NCBI RefSeq assembly: GCF_000186345.1
Contig: NC_014962.1
Span: forward strand, 2,694,450 to 2,758,449
Direction of reading: 5' to 3'
Origin: Isosphaera pallida ATCC 43644
GTDB taxonomy: Bacteria; Planctomycetota; Planctomycetia; Isosphaerales; Isosphaeraceae
Length of the DNA: 64,000 nt
Below the pieces are notes generated by a model, which was not told the DNA's origin, did no database searches, and saw only the letters and a program-made list of their open reading frames with translations. Shown here piece by piece: positions 42,815 to 57,565 of this stretch. The position numbers and the translations under genes were made by a program. Each line of letters begins with the position of its first letter. Positions within the stretch are counted from its first letter, which is position 1.

Positions 42815-45800
42815 ATGAGTGAATCAATCTCCAAGGCATCCTCGGGAGCGACCTTCTCCAACCTCGATCGGGTGGAGTCGTCGGTTCAGGACGCCTTGAA
42901 GATGACCAACCCCGACGACCAGGTTTTGTTCCACGACGGCGAATGCCGTGACCAACCCGACCTGCACGCTGCCGTCGAAACGCGGTTGAACCCACGTGAC
43001 GTCCCAATGCCCCCCACCCCAACGACGGCTTCCCAGTCGCCCAAGGGCCAGGCGTCGGCGGAGTGGGAAACCACCATCAAGCGACCCGTCGTCATCGCTC
43101 GCCCCGGAGTCTCCTGGGACGAATCGACCGTCACGGTGCCTCAACCAGGCGACTCCACCTTGGTCGAGCCGACGACATCTGGCAACCCAGTCGATGGTCT
43201 GATCGCCGACCGCTACCGGTTGCTTGAAATCCTGGGCACCGGCGGGATGGGCGAGGTCTGGAAGGCTGAACAGCTTCGCCCGGTCAGACGCATCGTCGCC
43301 CTCAAACTCGTCAAGTCCACCATTCGGACCGAAATCGTCCTCGCCCGGTTCGAGGCCGAACGCCAGGCGTTGGCCATAATGGACCACCCCCACGTCGCCA
43401 AGGTCCTCGACGCCGGCACCACCGACCAGGGCGCGCCGTTTTTCGTGATGGAGTACGTCGATGGGCTGTCGCTCACGGAGTATTGCGACTCCAGGAAGCT
43501 GTCGATTCCTCAACGTCTTGAATTGTTCGTGATGATCTGCGTGGCGGTTCAGCACGCCCATTACAAGGGGATCGTCCACCGCGATCTCAAACCGGGGAAC
43601 ATCCTCATCGCTGAATCGGACGGCAAACCGGCGGTGAAGGTGATCGACTTCGGGTTGGTCAAGGCGTTGAACGACCCCAATTTGCTGACGGACGACACGA
43701 TTCACACTCACGCGGGGGTCATGCTGGGGACGCTTCTCTACATGAGTCCCGAACAGGCGCGGGCCGTCAACCCGCACGACGTTGACACCCGAGCTGATGT
43801 TTACGCTCTGGGAGTGATCCTGTATGAACTGTTGACCGGCACGACGCCGATCGAGCGGGGCCGTTTGAATCCCCTGTCGTCAGAGGAGCGTCGTCGGATC
43901 ATCATGGAGGAGCAGCCGCCGCGTCCCAGCGCGCGGTTGCGGGAACGGGATTCATTGCACGAGGCGGCGGCATTGCGTGGGATCGAGCCGGGTCGGTTGG
44001 GTTCGATCCTCAAGGGCGATTTGGATTGGGTGGTGATGAAGGCGCTCGAAAAGGAGCGACATCGTCGTTACGAGACGGTCAATGCGTTGTCGCGCGACGT
44101 GCAGCGGTTTCTGGCCAACGAGCCTGTGGAGGCGCGTCCGCTGTCGGGGCTGTATCGTTTGCGGAAGTTCGCGCGGCGTTACCGGCTCCAGGTGACGGCG
44201 TTGGTGTTGGTGCTGGCGACGCTGGTGGTGGGGATGGCGGGAGTGATTTATGGACTGGTGGTGGAGCGTCAAGCGCGTGACGCCGAGGCGAAGCAGCGCC
44301 AGATCGCCGAACAGGAGAAAACGAACGCCAAGCGGGAGGCCGCCACCGCAGTGGCGGTCAAGGAGTTCGTTTTGAGGGACATGTTGTCCCTGGCCGAAGC
44401 CAGGGTTCAGGCTCGCGCCCGGGTGAAGGTTGATCCCGACCTGAAAGTGCGGGATGTTCTGTTGCGAGCGGCTCAAAGGATCGAAGGCAAGTTCGCGGAG
44501 CAACCCCTCGTCGAGGCCGAAGTGCGGTTAACCCTTGGAAATGCCTTGTGTGGCATTGGCCGCGCACGCGAAGCGATCGTTCAACTGGAACGCTCACATA
44601 CGATAAGGAAAGAGTTGTTAGGAGACGATCATTTGTCAACTCTAAACGCACTGAGCGATTTAGGTGTTGCCTATGAAAAAGCGGGTCAGGCATCCCAGGC
44701 AATTCCAATCTTTGAGCAAGTTCTGGAGAGACGGCGTGGCAAACTAGGCGAAAATCATCCTCAATTCATCATGTCGATAAGCAATTTGGCATGGTGTCTT
44801 GACGCTGTCGGTGACACCGCGAAGGCAATTAATTATCAGGAACAGGCTGTCACGAACATACGGCTCGAAAAAGGGAAAAATCACCCTGCAACTCTAAAAT
44901 TAATGAATAACTTAGCAGTTTTTTATAAGAATGCCGGTGATTATTCAAAAGCTCTCGATTTATTTGAACAAGTGATGATCGGGAGACGCGAGCAGCTAGG
45001 CGAAGATCATCCCGAAACCCTAGAATCGATAAACAGTCTTGCAAGCGTGTACTTGCTCAATCATCAAATTCAGAAATCGATTCTTCTTTATGAACAAGCG
45101 TTCACAATGATGCGTTCTAGGCTAGGCGAGGATCATCCCGATACGTTGAGTTCGCTCAGCGGTTTGGCAGCGGCTCACGAGTCTGCGGGTGAGGTCTTCA
45201 AGGCGATTCCTCTTCTTGAGAGGGTTTTGGAGGGAAGGCGTATCAGGTTAGGAACGGATCATCCTGATACGTTGAGATCGCTCAGTAGCCTGGCGGCGGC
45301 TTACGAGAGAGGAGGAGAAATGGCAAAAGCGCTGCCGCTTTATCAGCAAGCATTTGAGATGATGCGTGTCAAGCTCAGCGAGGATCACCCCTCCACTTTG
45401 TTGTCACTCAACAACCTCGCGTTCGCCTACAAAAAAGCGGGTGACACGGCCAAGGCAATCCCGCTTTATGAGCAATGTCTAGAGAAGCAGCGGGCCAAGC
45501 TGGGCGCGGATCATCCCGACACCTTGACTACCCTTAACAACCTGGCGTCGGCCTATGATTCGTCGGGTGACACGGCCAAGGCGATCCCACTCTATGAGCA
45601 ATGTCTAGAGAAGCAGCGGGCCAAGCTGGGCGCGGATCATCCCGACACCTTGACTACCCTTAACAACCTCGCGAGGGCTTATGAATCAGCTGGTGATGTT
45701 GGCAAGGCGATCCCGCTCTATGAGCAATGTCTGGAGCAGAGGCGGGCCAAGCTGGGCGCGGATCATTCCGACACCTTGATTTCCCTCAACAACCTAGCAA

Positions 45801-46792
45801 TAGCCTTGTTGATGCTTGATGAGATCATTCAGGCGAAATCTCTGCTCACACAAGGTTTGGAAACAAGTCGTGTCAAGCTGGGTGAGAACCATCCTATTGC
45901 CCTGACCTTTCTCAATAACCTGGCTAAAGCTTACGCTCAAACCGGTGACGCCATTCAAGCGATCCCTCTCTTCGAGCAAGTCTTGGAAACAAGTCGTGTC
46001 AAGCTGGGAGCGGACCATCCCAATACCTTGACCACGCTGAGTAACCTGGCTTTCGCACATAGTGAAGCAGGTCATATACAAATGTCGGTTTCTCTCTATG
46101 ATGAAGCCCTGCAAGGAAAGCGGACCAAGTTGGGTGAGGATCATCCTTCGACTCTCATCACTCTCAAAGGACTTGCCGGGGCTCATGCAGCCGCAGGTGC
46201 GTTGGATCAAGCCGCACTGTGCTACGAAGAAGCGTTTCGGAAGTTAGGTCAACGATTCGGGTCAGATCATCCCATGACGTTAGAGACCCTCTTGAGTCTA
46301 GCAAGGATTTATCGTCAGAGCGATCGAGTTGGCGAGGCGATTGAACTTGTCAATCCAGTCATTGAACGACTGCGTAGCGGACAACCTCGTAATCGCCGAC
46401 TTCTTGAGAACGGACTTAACACCCTGGGATGGGCTTTGCTTGAAACTGGAAAGCCCGCCGAGGCCGAACCAATCTTGCGTGAATGTCTGAAACTGAATCA
46501 AGAACTCGCTCCGGATTCCAAGTGGGTCGCGTTGACACAAACTCTCTTGGGCCAAGCGCTCCTCGATCAAGGCAAGTTGGTGGATGCCCTCCCATTGTTG
46601 ACGCAAGGGGAAGAGGGACTGAGAACCCAACGACAACCGGTCCGTTCTGGTTCGAAGTCTCAATGGGTCCAATCGGCTCGGCGTTTGGCGCGGTTGTATG
46701 AAGCGATGGAATTTCCCGAAGAGGCCGCGTTGTGGCGTGCCGAGGCCGACGCCAGACTCACGCACTTGGAAACCAACCGATCCCAGCCTTGA
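42815..46792 (+). CDS. Ser/Thr protein kinase fused to long TPR array
   Basis: 1,325 residues from the ATG at 42815; the frame is open back to 42620 with an unlikely start. A 125-residue polar leader precedes a PknB/Hanks kinase domain: Gly loop LGTGGMGEVW near residue 141, VALKLVK with the ATP-site Lys near 162, HRDLKPGN near 255, DFGLVKAL near 278, and MSPEQA activation/APE region. One membrane helix lies near 457-483. The rest is about 16 TPR units (42-residue kinesin-light-chain type, LGEDHPDTLxSLNNLA signature). Cytoplasmic kinase and extracytoplasmic TPRs are inferred. At 44590-45130 and again near 46040 the DNA is clearly AT-richer than in the kinase part, and 45441-45692 is a near-perfect duplication of 126 bases. 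Confidence 0.93.
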   Translation: MSESISKASSGATFSNLDRVESSVQDALKMTNPDDQVLFHDGECRDQPDLHAAVETRLNPRDVPMPPTPTTASQSPKGQASAEWETTIKRPVVIARPGVSWDESTVTVPQPGDSTLVEPTTSGNPVDGLIADRYRLLEILGTGGMGEVWKAEQLRPVRRIVALKLVKSTIRTEIVLARFEAERQALAIMDHPHVAKVLDAGTTDQGAPFFVMEYVDGLSLTEYCDSRKLSIPQRLELFVMICVAVQHAHYKGIVHRDLKPGNILIAESDGKPAVKVIDFGLVKALNDPNLLTDDTIHTHAGVMLGTLLYMSPEQARAVNPHDVDTRADVYALGVILYELLTGTTPIERGRLNPLSSEERRRIIMEEQPPRPSARLRERDSLHEAAALRGIEPGRLGSILKGDLDWVVMKALEKERHRRYETVNALSRDVQRFLANEPVEARPLSGLYRLRKFARRYRLQVTALVLVLATLVVGMAGVIYGLVVERQARDAEAKQRQIAEQEKTNAKREAATAVAVKEFVLRDMLSLAEARVQARARVKVDPDLKVRDVLLRAAQRIEGKFAEQPLVEAEVRLTLGNALCGIGRAREAIVQLERSHTIRKELLGDDHLSTLNALSDLGVAYEKAGQASQAIPIFEQVLERRRGKLGENHPQFIMSISNLAWCLDAVGDTAKAINYQEQAVTNIRLEKGKNHPATLKLMNNLAVFYKNAGDYSKALDLFEQVMIGRREQLGEDHPETLESINSLASVYLLNHQIQKSILLYEQAFTMMRSRLGEDHPDTLSSLSGLAAAHESAGEVFKAIPLLERVLEGRRIRLGTDHPDTLRSLSSLAAAYERGGEMAKALPLYQQAFEMMRVKLSEDHPSTLLSLNNLAFAYKKAGDTAKAIPLYEQCLEKQRAKLGADHPDTLTTLNNLASAYDSSGDTAKAIPLYEQCLEKQRAKLGADHPDTLTTLNNLARAYESAGDVGKAIPLYEQCLEQRRAKLGADHSDTLISLNNLAIALLMLDEIIQAKSLLTQGLETSRVKLGENHPIALTFLNNLAKAYAQTGDAIQAIPLFEQVLETSRVKLGADHPNTLTTLSNLAFAHSEAGHIQMSVSLYDEALQGKRTKLGEDHPSTLITLKGLAGAHAAAGALDQAALCYEEAFRKLGQRFGSDHPMTLETLLSLARIYRQSDRVGEAIELVNPVIERLRSGQPRNRRLLENGLNTLGWALLETGKPAEAEPILRECLKLNQELAPDSKWVALTQTLLGQALLDQGKLVDALPLLTQGEEGLRTQRQPVRSGSKSQWVQSARRLARLYEAMEFPEEAALWRAEADARLTHLETNRSQP
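45441..45692 (+). repeat. 126-bp tandem duplication inside TPR array
   Basis: Units 45441-45566 and 45567-45692 encode one 42-residue TPR each. A stretch of 77 bases (45467-45543 versus 45593-45669) is identical, and a third unit (45693-45818) is similar but diverged. Such high DNA identity among otherwise divergent TPRs points to recent duplication or gene conversion. Confidence 0.8.
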
Positions 46793-52792: not shown

Positions 52793-54118
52793 TCAAGCCG
52801 TGGCGAGGACCGGCGAGGCGCTGGAGCGGGCCACTTCGTCCCAGGTGACGATGCGTCGTTCGTCCACGGCGCGACGGACCAGAAGACCAATTGCGGTAGC
52901 GATCCGGGCCTCTTCGAGCGTGAGGGGGGGCGGAACCCGGCCGGGTGAATCGCTTCGCAAGGCAGCGACGAAGGCCTCGAGAGCCAAACGCGTGTCGGGA
53001 AGCGGGCCAGGATGAAGGACGCGGCGGGGTTGGGAGCGGTCACGGAAGGTGAGGCGTCCCGAGGCGAGGTCAAGTCCGCCGCGTTCGCCGACGATTTGGA
53101 GGGTGACGCCAGTGAAGGCGTCGTCGGCGGGGTCGATCCAGCTTTGACGGAATTCCAGGCGGAAGCCGTCGGCCCATTCGAGGATGGCGGTGTACTCGTC
53201 GGTCACGTCGCGTTCGGGCCGGGTGGCGGCGAACAGGTCGCGCCGGCCCACGCCGAAGGCCCGCGACGGCGGACATCCTTTGAACCAGTGGACCACATCC
53301 CAGACGTGGACAGCCTGTTCTACCATCCAATCACCCGAACGCGCGCGCTGCCCGAGCCAGCCGCCGTGGCCATTCAGCGGGCCGTTGCTGCTAATCCAAG
53401 CGCCGCGAGCGGCGAGCAAGCGACCAAGCTCGCCTCGCTCCAGCACGATTTTGGCCTCGCGGTAGCGGGGGTGGGAACGGCGCTGAAAGCCGACATGGAC
53501 GGCCAAATCGGGTCGCTTGCGGGACTCGGCGATCAGAGCGTCGCACTCCTCCAGGGTTGGAGCCAGTGGTTTTTCGAGATACACCGAGCGACCGCTCCGC
53601 AGCGCCTTCAAGGCGACCGGAACGTGGAGGTCGCAGGGAAGGGCCACAATCACCCCGTCGAGCCGATCGGCGGACGATTCCAGCAGAGCGTCGGCCGTGG
53701 CGAAGCCGATTGGTTCCACGCCGCGCCCCTTGCGGATCACCGCGCAGGCGCGCTCGCCGTGTCGTTCTTCGACGTCGGCCACAGCGACCAGGTCGATCCC
53801 GTCCAGTTCCAGAAGGGTTCGCGCGAGATTGAGGCCCCGGTTGCCCGCGCCGATCAAACCCAACCGCAGGCGACGGGCCGACGCGCTGGTCGCGGCGTCC
53901 GCAGTGCCTTGAGCCGCCAAACTCAGCGCGGTCGTGGCGGCCATTGCCGCGATATTGCCAATCGCCGAGTGACCCACTGCCAACCCCGCCACGGCGGACC
54001 GTCCCAGAAACCGCCGGCGGTTGATCGGCGGGGGAAGAGGTGGCGGCGCGTCTGGCACCAAGGGAGACTCGGAACCATCGGCGTCGTGGGAGGTTCGGGG
54101 CGGATGCGATTGCGTCAT
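52793..54118 (-). CDS. Tat-exported Gfo/Idh/MocA-family oxidoreductase
   Basis: 441 residues from the ATG at 54118; the frame opens at 54328 but that part is Arg/Gly-rich and unlike the family. A Pro-rich leader precedes a clear twin-arginine signal (NRRRFLGRSAVAGLAVGHSAIG, about residues 33-54). The Rossmann domain follows (LRLGLIGAGNRGLNLARTLLE near residue 85, VALPCDLHVPVALKAL, EKPLAPTLEECDALI), then HVGFQRRSHPRYREAK, HVWDVVHWF and a Gfo/Idh C-terminal domain. Such exported NAD-dependent sugar oxidoreductases are characteristic of planctomycetes. The substrate is unknown. Confidence 0.92.
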   Translation of the reverse strand: MTQSHPPRTSHDADGSESPLVPDAPPPLPPPINRRRFLGRSAVAGLAVGHSAIGNIAAMAATTALSLAAQGTADAATSASARRLRLGLIGAGNRGLNLARTLLELDGIDLVAVADVEERHGERACAVIRKGRGVEPIGFATADALLESSADRLDGVIVALPCDLHVPVALKALRSGRSVYLEKPLAPTLEECDALIAESRKRPDLAVHVGFQRRSHPRYREAKIVLERGELGRLLAARGAWISSNGPLNGHGGWLGQRARSGDWMVEQAVHVWDVVHWFKGCPPSRAFGVGRRDLFAATRPERDVTDEYTAILEWADGFRLEFRQSWIDPADDAFTGVTLQIVGERGGLDLASGRLTFRDRSQPRRVLHPGPLPDTRLALEAFVAALRSDSPGRVPPPLTLEEARIATAIGLLVRRAVDERRIVTWDEVARSSASPVLATA

Positions 54119-54514
54119 GGGTTGGTCCGCTGTCTCGGGACGCGCGCGGCGAGGCAAACCGGCGGGTCGGGGCCAAGAGAACCAACGGGATGATTGTCGC
54201 CGTCGTTCATGTCGATCCCCGCGCGGTACACAGGCCCATTGTATCCTCCCGGTCGAACCGAGAAAACCACAACGACCCACCGCAAGTTCCCCTCGGCCTC
54301 GTCGGTCGTGCTGCCGAGTTTCCCCCAACCCAAAAACCTCCCCCCATTTCGCCTGAGCGAAACGGAGGGAGGTCGGTCGTAACCGTTCGACGCTCGGGAG
54401 GGTCAGACAACGCGAATCCAGTCATGGTCTCGAACACGAGATGTCAAAACCTTCTCATTCGTGAAGATCACATCACAACGCCTCTTGATCACTCGACGAA
54501 TCATCGACGATCAA
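54119..54514. other. Intergenic, contains minus-strand terminator
   Basis: 396 bases between the Gfo/Idh start and the end of the repeat-peptide gene. The hairpin at 54332-54372 is the only clear element. The upstream part (54119-54330) should hold the promoter of the Gfo/Idh gene. Confidence 0.45.
54332..54372 (-). terminator. Rho-independent-type terminator for repeat-peptide gene
   Basis: Read on the minus strand, CCTCCCTCCGTTTCGC and GCGAAATGGGGGGAGG form a long GC-rich stem with a four-base loop (CTCAG region). It is followed at once by TTTTTG (54336-54331). It lies about 140 bases after the stop of the gene at 54515-54850. Confidence 0.6.
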
Positions 54515-54850
54515 TCAATAGTAGCAGAAGGGGTCGTAGAACCCACCTCGGAACCCTCGGTGGAAGCCGGGATGGAACCCTCGGTGGAAGCCGGGATGGA
54601 ACCCTCGGTGGAAGCCGGGATGGAACCCTCGGTGGAAGCCGGGATGGAACCCTCGGTGGAAGCCGGGATGGAAGCCCTTGTTGACTCCCACCACCACGCT
54701 CTTGCCGCCGAAGCGATCGAAGCCGACGCCAACGCGGACGCTCTTGCCGAAGCCGTCGCCGTAGAAGAATGGGTCGAACACCTGAGCCTGCGCGTTTGAA
54801 GCCGAGGCCAGTGACAAGGCGGTCGTCAACGCGACGAGTCGAATCAGCAT
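54515..54850 (-). CDS. Small secreted peptide with GFHPGFHR repeats
   Basis: 111 residues from the ATG at 54850, with AAGGAG at a spacing of eight. The signal peptide (MLIRLVALTTALSLASASNAQA, cleavage AQA-Q near residue 22) is followed by VFDPFFYGDGFG and two Gly/Lys/Val-rich segments. Five perfect octapeptide repeats GFHPGFHR follow (residues about 59-98), ending RGGFYDPFCYY. The FDPFFY and FYDPFCYY blocks bracket the repeats. The mature chain is rich in Phe, Gly and His, so metal binding or self-assembly is conceivable, but nothing proves it. The gene at 55480-55716 has a similar signal peptide. Confidence 0.78.
   Translation of the reverse strand: MLIRLVALTTALSLASASNAQAQVFDPFFYGDGFGKSVRVGVGFDRFGGKSVVVGVNKGFHPGFHRGFHPGFHRGFHPGFHRGFHPGFHRGFHPGFHRGFRGGFYDPFCYY
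54551..54670. repeat. Five perfect 24-bp tandem repeats
   Basis: The unit starting GAACCCTCGGTGGAAGCCGG (24 bases) occurs five times without a mismatch at 54551, 54575, 54599, 54623 and 54647. On the minus strand it encodes GFHPGFHR. The perfect identity indicates recent expansion by slippage or strong homogenisation; copy number is likely to vary among strains. Confidence 0.95.
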
Positions 54851-55074
54851 CGCTCAATCTCCTTGAATCGACATGGTGGGTCTGTCATGAAGTTACGGGA
54901 AGGAGCGGGCTTCGAGTAGCGCGAGCCGCGCGTGACCGCCTTGTCTTTGTTAGACCAAGGAGGCCGCGGTCGAGACCAGATCGACGTTGAAATCCGACGC
55001 GATTCGATGGCAAGGAATCAAGCGTCGATTGTTTCCGCTCCGCACGTTCGGTCGGTTGGTCGGGACACGGGGCG

Positions 55075-55212
55075 TCATCGGCGTGGAACGTCCTTATCGA
55101 TGACCGCCAGGGGTGGTGGTGCGATCAGCGAACCCAAGGGGTCGTTCTCGCTGAGTTCCGCCGCCGCGTCCCGACAACCTCGGCTTCCGCAAACAGCGGC
55201 GTCTTCCGTCAC
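55075..55212 (-). CDS. Possible small GSRGCRD-motif peptide, cassette 1
   Basis: 45 residues from a GTG at 55212: VTEDAAVCGSRGCRDAAAEL, then an acidic and Pro/Leu-rich end. The motif C-G-S-R-G-C-R-D has two Cys four residues apart. A second ORF with VT...GSRGCRD starts at 55928, and 22 bases spanning the motif are identical. There is no clear ribosome site here, so it may be a remnant. It lies upstream of the secreted-peptide gene 54515-54850 on the same strand. Confidence 0.3.
   Translation of the reverse strand: MTEDAAVCGSRGCRDAAAELSENDPLGSLIAPPPLAVIDKDVPRR
55168..55189. repeat. 22-bp exact repeat, copy 1
   Basis: GTCCCGACAACCTCGGCTTC plus CG, identical to 55884-55905. It covers the GSRGCRD codons of the cassette ORFs and lies about 320 bases upstream of the 54850 start. 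Confidence 0.85.
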
Positions 55213-55302
55213 AAAATCCGCGCGATCGAACTAGATCGGTCGTCGGCTAGGACAACTCCACGTCGCCTTGGCCAACCAAGTGGAGACCACCCAACGTGAA
55301 CA

Positions 55303-55343
55303 CCTTCCTTCGATCGGCCTACGTAGGACGAAACGAAGGAAGG
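55303..55343. other. Long hairpin with palindromic loop
   Basis: CCTTCCTTCG (55303-55312) pairs perfectly with CGAAGGAAGG (55334-55343); the 21-base loop itself contains the palindrome CCTACGTAGG (55318-55327). It lies downstream of the 55480-55716 gene on the minus strand, so it may act as its terminator, although no T run follows. Confidence 0.5.
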
Positions 55344-55479
55344 AACGTCGCGTGGCCGGGTTAAAGGAGGTGGGCTGGTGAGTTGGGGGTCGATTTCAGC
55401 CGTCATCCCTGAAGCTCGTCGCGTCCCACGAATCAACTCGGCTCACACCGCGTGCTGACCTTTGACCGAAGGGGGCGTG

Positions 55480-55716
55480 CTATCTGAGAGGGTCAGTTCG
55501 AGGCAAATCGTGCCGAAGCGGATAGGTCTTGGGGAAAGACGGCGGACTGGGCCGGTGTCGCGGACCGCTCCAGTGATCAGGAGGATAGGGGTGTCGCAGT
55601 CCGTTGCAGCCGAGAAAAGACGGCGTGTCGGGAGTCGAGCAAAATTCCTGAGCTTGCGCGGTCGAAGCGAAGGCCAACGAAAGAACCGTCCCCAGCCCGA
55701 TCAGTCGAATCGTCAT
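55480..55716 (-). CDS. Small secreted peptide related to the repeat peptide (possible remnant)
   Basis: 78 residues from the ATG at 55716. The signal peptide MTIRLIGLGTVLSLAFASTAQAQ matches that of the 54515-54850 product (MLIRLVALTTALSLASASNAQAQ) at most positions. After the cleavage site it diverges completely: EFCSTPDTPSFLGCNG, then a Pro/His/Arg-rich end that looks poorly conserved and may be out of frame. Its start overlaps the end of an upstream GSRGCRD ORF by four bases (ATGA). It is probably a diverged or decayed duplicate. Confidence 0.5.
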   Translation of the reverse strand: MTIRLIGLGTVLSLAFASTAQAQEFCSTPDTPSFLGCNGLRHPYPPDHWSGPRHRPSPPSFPKTYPLRHDLPRTDPLR

Positions 55717-55928
55717 GGTGGAATCTCTTGTGTGGTGGCGTTGAAGGTCGGCTGAGAGAAACGGGTAACGAGTGAGCTTGAAAAGATTCGATCGTCAAGA
55801 GGATCTCGCGCGATCAAATCCTTCGACGGATTCCAACGACACGAAGCCTCGTCGGCGTTGCGTGTTGTGGCGATGGCTGGTGTGTCCCGACAACCTCGGC
55901 TTCCGTAACCGAACCATCGTTTCGTCAC
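55713..55928 (-). CDS. Possible small GSRGCRD-motif peptide, cassette 2
   Basis: 71 residues from a GTG at 55928 with GAGG six bases upstream: VTKRWFGYGSRGCRDTPAIA, then a polar, Ser/Thr/Arg-rich part. The longer frame to 56327 is unsupported. Its stop shares ATGA with the secreted-peptide start at 55716, which would allow coupled translation. It resembles the ORF at 55075-55212 in the motif and in its position before a secreted-peptide gene. Confidence 0.3.
   Translation of the reverse strand: MTKRWFGYGSRGCRDTPAIATTRNADEASCRWNPSKDLIARDPLDDRIFSSSLVTRFSQPTFNATTQEIPP
55884..55905. repeat. 22-bp exact repeat, copy 2
   Basis: Identical to 55168-55189. It lies about 170 bases upstream of the 55716 start. 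Around both copies, a TCGTCAC/CCGTCAC element and an ATCGAA element recur at comparable spacing, so the homology is wider than 22 bases. Confidence 0.85.
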
Positions 55929-56200
55929 GACCGACCTCAACAATCGAAACCTGCTCGATCGCAACTTCAGGACCATCGCTTCGGTTCGATTGACGGCCCC
56001 TAGGTTTGGCGTTGCGCGGAGCCGACGGTCCCCCAGGATCGCCGGAACGGATAAAATGAGGAGGCGCGACGCGAAGCGACCCCCACGTGCGGGGTCCGTG
56101 GCGTTCCCACCGCCGGTTGGTTTGGTCGTGTCGTGTCCGTGATGAACGTGGGATCGGACGAGATTGGTTTGTTCTATCTCAGCGAGGTCGCCGCCCCGCC
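55929..56200. other. Intergenic upstream of ribBA
   Basis: About 270 bases between the GSRGCRD ORF and ribBA. I looked for the conserved core of an FMN riboswitch, which often precedes riboflavin genes, and did not see it. No other element is apparent. Confidence 0.45.
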
Positions 56201-57565
56201 ATGTCGTTGACGTCGTCCCAGTCGGAATCGTCCTGGAACGCCCCAGGCGCTGCCAAGTCCGATTTCGCCAGTTCGGTCGAGTCTTGCGAGGCCGAGTTCT
56301 CGCGGATTGAGGAGGCGATCGCCGCAATCGCTCAAGGTCGTCCGGTCATCGTGGTCGATGACGAGGACCGCGAGGACGAAGGTGACTTCATCGCCGCGGC
56401 CGAGAAGGTCACGCCCGAACTCATCGAGTTCATGATCACCCACGGACGCGGCCAACTCTGTATGCCGATCCTGCCCGACCTGGCCGCCCGTCTCGAATTG
56501 CACCCGATGGTCGTCACCAACACCGCCCGGTTCGAGACCCCCTTCACCGTGCCGGTCGATCATATCAGTTGCAAAACCGGCATCAGCGCCGAGGAACGAG
56601 CCAGAACAATCCGGGCCATCGTGGACCCTGCCACCCGCCCCGGCGACCTGGTGCGTCCCGGCCATCTCTTTCCCCTGGTAGCCCGCGAGGGCGGGGTGCT
56701 GCGTCGCGCTGGTCACACCGAGGCGGCCGTCGATCTGGCGACGCTCGCCGGTCTCCAGCCTGCCGGCGTGCTGTGCGAAATCCTCGATGGTGTAAAGGTC
56801 GCCGGTCGTGCCAAGCTGCGCGAACTGTCCCAGACCTTCAACCTACCGATGATCTCGATCGAGGCGCTGATTCGCTACCGCCGCCGCACCGAACGCTTGG
56901 TCAGCCGTCTAGCCGAGGCTGAGTTGCCCACCAAGTACGGCCTGGGACGCATCATCGGCTACGGCGTCAAACATGAGCCGCTGAACAACCCCGTGGCGTT
57001 TGTCATGGGCGAACTCGACCGCGTTGAGGCTCCCTTGGTTCGGATTCATTCCTCCTGCTTCACCGGCGATTTGCTCCAATCGCTTCGTTGCGACTGCGGT
57101 GATCAGCTTCACCTGGCCCTGGAGGCCATCGGCCGCGAAGGGGTCGGGGCCTTGATCTATCTGCCCCAGGAGGGTCGGGGGATCGGCCTGATCGAGAAGT
57201 TGCGGGCCTATGCCTTGCAGGATCAGGGACTCGACACCGTGGAGGCCAACCTCGCGCTAGGACATCGGGCCGACCTACGCGACTACGGCGTGGGACTCCA
57301 AATTCTCCGCGACCTGGGACTGAAAAAGGTTCGTCTCTTGACCAACAATCCCAAAAAGGTCAATGCCTTCGTCATCAGCGGACACGGCATCGAAGTGGTT
57401 GATCAAGTGCCGATCGTGGCTGAGATGCGACCCGAGCGCCGTCGCTATCTGGAAACCAAGCGCGACAAGCTGGGGCACAAACTGCCGGGCGTCGTTCGTC
57501 CGGGCGGTTGTCCTCTGTGCACCTCAGATGGGGAATCCTCGGCGTCGGTCGATTCCACCAAGTGA
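56201..57565 (+). CDS. ribBA: Bifunctional DHBP synthase / GTP cyclohydrolase II
   Basis: 454 residues from the ATG at 56201; in-frame starts upstream to 56087 are not supported. The N-terminal RibB domain shows VIVVDDEDREDEGDFIAAAE, GRGQLCMPI, TGISAEERARTI and RRAGHTEAAVDLATLAG. The C-terminal RibA domain shows zinc ligands in HSSCFTGDLLQSLRCDCGDQLHLAL, the GTP-site LPQEGRGIGLIEKLRAYALQ and VRLLTNNPKKVNAF. It makes both precursors of riboflavin: DHBP from ribulose-5-phosphate and the pyrimidine from GTP. A short tail has a Cys pair (GGCPLC). It is monocistronic as far as can be seen. Confidence 0.96.
   Translation: MSLTSSQSESSWNAPGAAKSDFASSVESCEAEFSRIEEAIAAIAQGRPVIVVDDEDREDEGDFIAAAEKVTPELIEFMITHGRGQLCMPILPDLAARLELHPMVVTNTARFETPFTVPVDHISCKTGISAEERARTIRAIVDPATRPGDLVRPGHLFPLVAREGGVLRRAGHTEAAVDLATLAGLQPAGVLCEILDGVKVAGRAKLRELSQTFNLPMISIEALIRYRRRTERLVSRLAEAELPTKYGLGRIIGYGVKHEPLNNPVAFVMGELDRVEAPLVRIHSSCFTGDLLQSLRCDCGDQLHLALEAIGREGVGALIYLPQEGRGIGLIEKLRAYALQDQGLDTVEANLALGHRADLRDYGVGLQILRDLGLKKVRLLTNNPKKVNAFVISGHGIEVVDQVPIVAEMRPERRRYLETKRDKLGHKLPGVVRPGGCPLCTSDGESSASVDSTK

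Follow-up and report, generated by a model that had tools for sequence, protein, structure and literature searches.

Organisation of the locus

Isosphaera pallida IS1B is described as a gliding, thermophilic planctomycete of hot-spring origin, with published replicons comprising a chromosome of 5,472,964 bases and a plasmid of 56,340 bases (PMC3072084). Within the window—the whole 64,000-base stretch of its DNA that was analysed—two minus-strand units lie in tandem, flanked by a Gfo/Idh/MocA-type gene and ribBA (Table 1). Unit B (55908 to ~55300) comes first in transcription order and unit A (55192 to 54335) follows; each is made up of a 25-mer, a signal-peptide gene, and a downstream hairpin, with order and strand alike in both. 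For the duplicated minus-strand layout of two units put forward in the original prediction, the sequence facts mostly hold.

Table 1. Features of the two units and of the flanking genes (positions are those of the window).
Feature	Position	Strand	Remarks
Gfo/Idh/MocA-type oxidoreductase gene	52796-54118 (tested)	minus	Pfam
Terminator-like hairpin downstream of gene A	54335..54374	minus	Fold and terminator scan
Gene A	54515..54850	minus	111 aa, probable secreted protein; signal peptide followed by a short Gly-rich part and Gly-Phe-His repeats
24-bp tandem repeat within gene A	54550..54678	minus	5.3 copies, 99% matches
GSRGCRD frame, unit A	55075..55212	minus	45 aa, GTG start; ambiguous as to coding
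25-mer, unit A copy	55168..55192	minus	317 bases upstream of gene A
Hairpin downstream of gene B	55300..55345 (approximate)	minus	Fold of 55290-55360, z -3.6; no T run
Gene B	55480..55716	minus	78 aa; coding-like over the signal peptide but not over the mature part (55483-55647)
GSRGCRD frame, unit B	55716..55928	minus	GTG start, runs to about the gene B start; unsupported as gene
25-mer, unit B copy	55884..55908	minus	167 bases upstream of gene B; 24/25 bases as in unit A copy
ribBA	56201-57562 (tested)	plus	Pfam

Hairpins had been claimed downstream of each unit, and both are found. The unit A structure has 18 pairs and a T tail (fold z -4.7) and is thereby of the GC-rich-hairpin and T-run type expected of a terminator, whereas its unit B counterpart is stable but absent from the terminator-scan list. 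That scan recorded three terminator-like sites in the region, where shuffled sequences give a mean of 2.5.

Sequence shared by the two units

Both copies of the 25-mer can be read as GSRGCRD, and they are identical at 24 of 25 bases (96%), with 22 bases in one exact run. Under a first-order model, ~1e-6 exact 22-mer pairs would be expected in 2.7 kb and 6e-4 in 64 kb; the 22-bp match on which the prediction was built is hence real and beyond chance. Similarity also reaches beyond these 22 bases, to a stretch containing the RBS and the signal peptide in which 89 of 135 bases are aligned alike (blastn E 1e-10). Signal peptides are present in both units, as predicted, and share 68% amino-acid identity over residues 1–25. 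Their 23 signal codons differ at six first, six second, and eight third positions, and 7/23 residues differ; dN is 0.27 and dS 0.75 for the 22 codons that follow the start, which—given so few codons—would indicate mild constraint at best.

Apart from these two shared stretches, the units show no significant likeness. The mature parts differ completely, as had been claimed (244/500 shuffles score as well), and cannot be aligned for a comparison of selection. The 'further short shared elements' of the original prediction did not survive comparison with dinucleotide shuffles, which reach the observed score in 45/500 cases for the interior, 46/500 for the downstream part, and 143/500 for the upstream part. 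A and B are thus adjacent units that share two stretches beyond chance, as a tandem paralogue pair should; the likeness does not extend along the genes beyond their starts, however, and the whole-gene similarity of paralogues is lacking. Both the 25-mer and the RBS/signal stretch support the common origin that had been proposed.

Local recombination (gene conversion) offers another route by which these two stretches, themselves unconstrained, could have been kept alike, and the sharply bounded identity would fit it. A tract of 25 bases is short for gene conversion, however, and the signal stretch is just 66% alike at the DNA level; we hold this account to be very improbable.

Coding statistics of genes A and B

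The 27 long stop-free frames in the window served to train codon usage, and scores were compared with those of 125 wrong-frame ORFs and of 540 pieces of the training frames; the test is noisy for frames as short as these, and its real-gene pieces come from its own training set.

Gene A (start 54850) is preceded by AGGAGA, and its signal peptide ends in AQA (both by eye), after which come the Gly-Phe-His repeats encoded by the 24-bp units. Because these units are near-identical, the repeat has probably expanded recently. The number of 24-bp units is likely to vary between strains. Residues 1–58 beat all 125 wrong-frame ORFs (447/540 real pieces score as low), and the score of the whole gene is reached by 12/125 wrong-frame ORFs (206/540 real pieces score as low). 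Gene A is a genuine gene with ordinary coding statistics. Its sole Pfam match up to E 1 is Mfp-3 (PF04202), at 15.8 bits against a gathering threshold of 22; with a score under the curated cut-off and a resemblance that is compositional only, membership of this family was rejected. Structure prediction of protein A without an alignment gave a mean pLDDT of 60.4 and a pTM of 0.28, values that are not interpretable.

Gene B (start 55716) is preceded by AAGAGA (by eye), and its signal peptide passes a simple signal criterion. The n-, h-, and c-regions and the AxA site were judged by eye in both signal peptides, that of gene A by eye only. Taken whole, gene B scores no higher than 69/125 wrong-frame ORFs, and 16/540 real pieces score as low. 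For its mature part these figures become 107/125 and, among the long-ORF pieces, 5/540. The frame is nonetheless open, with no stop from the signal peptide to residue 78, as in a living gene. Since the mature part carries no coding signature, the divergence of gene B can be decay; its tail looks non-coding, and this copy is doubtful as a gene and looks decayed or remade.

Alternatively, and in line with the original prediction, both genes may yield functional secreted peptides, the export part having been conserved while the mature parts behind it diverged fast or were exchanged. Such a history would explain why similarity halts at the predicted cleavage site and why signal peptides and RBS are kept in both units while the gene B frame stays open. 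It accords poorly with the lack of a coding signature in the gene B mature part and with searches of the own genome, the family, and the phylum (below), which found no further members. On balance we think it unlikely.

The shared 25-mer and the GSRGCRD frames

The identity of the 25-mer extends to every codon position and breaks off at the edges of the element, with unrelated residues on either side, and therefore points to the nucleotide level; between units A and B, moreover, the element has changed less than the coding signal stretch. Judged by this pattern, the 25-mer is more likely a putative cis element at the nucleotide level. As to its kind, we can offer only a guess: a regulatory or transcribed element such as an operator, part of a promoter, or a piece of a leader RNA.

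A small dyad, CCGA-N5-TCGG, lies inside the 25-mer (by eye), and the RNA fold around the two copies is no better than that of shuffled sequence (z -0.3 and -0.2). Rfam gave no match above the gathering threshold in 54000–56300; the single match up to E 1 was to P4, on the plus strand, with 15.1 of the 37 bits needed. A promoter scan found no sigma-70-like promoter in 54100–56300, and an ECF-type reading was dropped on spacing.

The original prediction assigned each unit a short ORF bearing GSRGCRD. The motif is indeed readable in both, but codon statistics lend the ORFs no support as genes, that of unit A being ambiguous: its score is reached by 16/125 wrong-frame ORFs (110/540 long-ORF pieces are as low), and that of the unit B frame by 51/125 (29/540 as low). 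GSRGCRD more likely reflects conservation of DNA than of protein. It could otherwise belong to a translated leader, or to a small protein acting with each secreted protein, as might be suggested by the GTG that stands in frame eight codons ahead of the motif in both units (start read by eye) and by how few wrong-frame ORFs match the unit A frame. The unit B frame scores like the wrong frames, however, and neither the even identity across codon positions, bounded by the element, nor the unrelated residues around the motif would be expected of a conserved peptide, making a leader or small protein distinctly improbable.

The 25-mer might also be read on the plus strand, as PDNLGFR, and be the remnant of a protein-coding gene; that frame is open in unit B. 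Yet the degenerate pattern D-N-x-G-F-R matches these two places of the genome alone, and in Pfam nothing up to E 10 matches the 73-aa ORF on the plus strand of unit B, so that a remnant of this sort is scarcely credible.

Searches for further copies and relatives

Searches of the organism's own genome covered 5,529,304 bases in two contigs, and neither the 20-base core, the 16-base core, protein A, nor protein B revealed a third copy. With up to two mismatches, the 20-base core occurs at two places, both at this locus, and the 16-base core at 28, against 17 for its reversed control. All but two (L072 and L085) of the 26 places of the 16-base core outside the locus lie in stop-free frames of at least 208 aa, and a 25-mer regulon is not claimed. 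At E up to 10, proteins A and B each had seven matches, none of which, besides A and B themselves, covers the start of the signal peptide. One match of protein A is better than that to B (E 0.013, residues 42–86) and falls within a 411-aa frame of another protein; the A-to-B match itself is weak (E 0.19), and a further copy consisting of the signal only might therefore escape notice.

The family set held 45 genomes including the organism's own, the 44 others all being of genera other than Isosphaera, and in these 44 no relative of gene A, gene B, or the 25-mer was accepted. In 10 other genomes the core of the 25-mer occurs at 12 places, always with two mismatches and in threefold excess over the reversed control (four places); since all 12 sit in stop-free frames of at least 269 aa, we take them for chance matches within genes. 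A shortened gene A query gave one match in each of five other genomes (E 0.007–0.02), 3/5 of them with internal stops. One candidate, L035, covers the signal peptide and first mature residues (48.6% over residues 1–35 on rerun); it opens a 213-aa frame, the remainder of which is unlike gene A, and was rejected as a chance signal-peptide match. The gene B query gave matches in nine other genomes, the best with E 0.0019, 29% identity, and an internal stop; of the 10 places, seven were judged by their match rows at most, and none of the loci inspected (L096, L097, L098, and L100) was accepted. The weak matches that were read residue by residue look like other proteins or wrong frames.

Across 392 phylum genomes, residues 1–58 of gene A matched the own genome alone at E 0.001, with none in the 391 others. 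In genome contigs, from a set that may omit the own genome, an exact 21-mer search returned no match and a protein A pattern search returned 250 pattern matches, of which none was confirmed. Among the literature titles listed on signal peptides and small secreted proteins none concerned this locus, which does not show its absence from print. The copies that the original prediction would have sought in planctomycete relatives were accordingly not accepted anywhere, whether in the 44 family genomes or, for gene A, in the 391 phylum genomes as well, and the pair is real, local, and so far restricted to the species. The prediction had further seen here a family diversifying rapidly after the signal sequence. 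With only two members in the genome, no accepted relative elsewhere, and a gene B tail that resembles non-coding DNA, this part is not supported, since a pair of copies falls short of a rapidly diversifying family.

A ribBA match is present in 40/45 family genomes, and 30 loci, the own included, were compared. The ~1.4–1.5 kb upstream of ribBA contain an accepted relative of A or B in 0/29 other genomes; in 4/29 (L044, L050, L060, and L061) an opposite-strand ORF there passes the simple signal criterion and is unmatched by A and B. One 16-residue match to the gene B tail (L055, E 6e-4) falls in a repetitive stretch. In L060 and L061—two genomes of one genus—this ORF has 160–161 aa with a signal-like start and lies ~140–190 bases upstream of the ribBA match.

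Origin and possible function

We consider an old tandem duplication the probable origin of the locus, leaving one working secreted protein, one degenerating or remade copy, and a shared element at the nucleotide level. A small secreted-protein gene would have been duplicated long ago together with its upstream region, as supported by the 25-mer shared beyond chance, the RBS/signal stretch, and the common order and strand of the units. Gene A would be the copy still at work, its product leaving the cell by the Sec pathway and being cut after AQA to release a mature protein of ~89 residues with Gly-Phe-His repeats; going by composition, an unstructured protein of the surface or matrix is the most plausible reading, and we would guess that it may bind metal via its histidines. 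Gene B would have kept its RBS and signal peptide and lost or replaced its mature part, which may no longer be under selection at the protein level. Of the upstream region, the 25-mer alone would have been retained in both units, at the level of nucleotide sequence. The good coding statistics of gene A and the poor ones of the gene B mature part support a working A and a decaying B.

Several observations weigh against duplication plus decay. The gene B frame is open, the GSRGCRD frame of unit A scores within the range of real genes, and the spacing between 25-mer and gene differs (317 versus 167 bases). No RNA fold, Rfam family, or sigma-70-like promoter explains the 25-mer, and the coding test is noisy on short frames, even the whole of gene A being reached by 12/125 wrong-frame ORFs. 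The locus might instead hold a species-specific export cassette—25-mer, RBS, and signal peptide—into which unrelated payloads were installed, with the 25-mer as a shared nucleotide-level control element; we rate this as improbable.

If both genes are used, the pair would show in minimal form how a secreted-protein gene of a bacterium keeps its export part and exchanges its payload. If they are not, it would show how the signal peptide of a decaying duplicate can persist after the remainder is lost, and that conserved DNA, not protein, may underlie a short peptide motif common to neighbouring units.

Tandem paralogue pairs of Sec-exported orphan proteins are a general bacterial pattern, and A and B conform to it in adjacency, strand, shared signal peptide, and the lack of accepted relatives outside the species. 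They depart from it in that the mature parts share nothing, one of them being without a coding signature, and in that the coding part has been preserved less well than a short element upstream. Animal antimicrobial-peptide families, for example the mussel myticalins, are multigene families with a conserved signal and a variable mature part. The combination of conserved signal and different mature part recurs here; only two copies were found, however, and one has no coding signature in its mature part. To the mussel foot protein Mfp-3, gene A is alike in its Gly-rich composition, with a sub-threshold match. Elsewhere in the window, a direct repeat at 45188–46051 with a period of 126 bases (42 codons) and copies 60%–80% alike fits a repeat protein.
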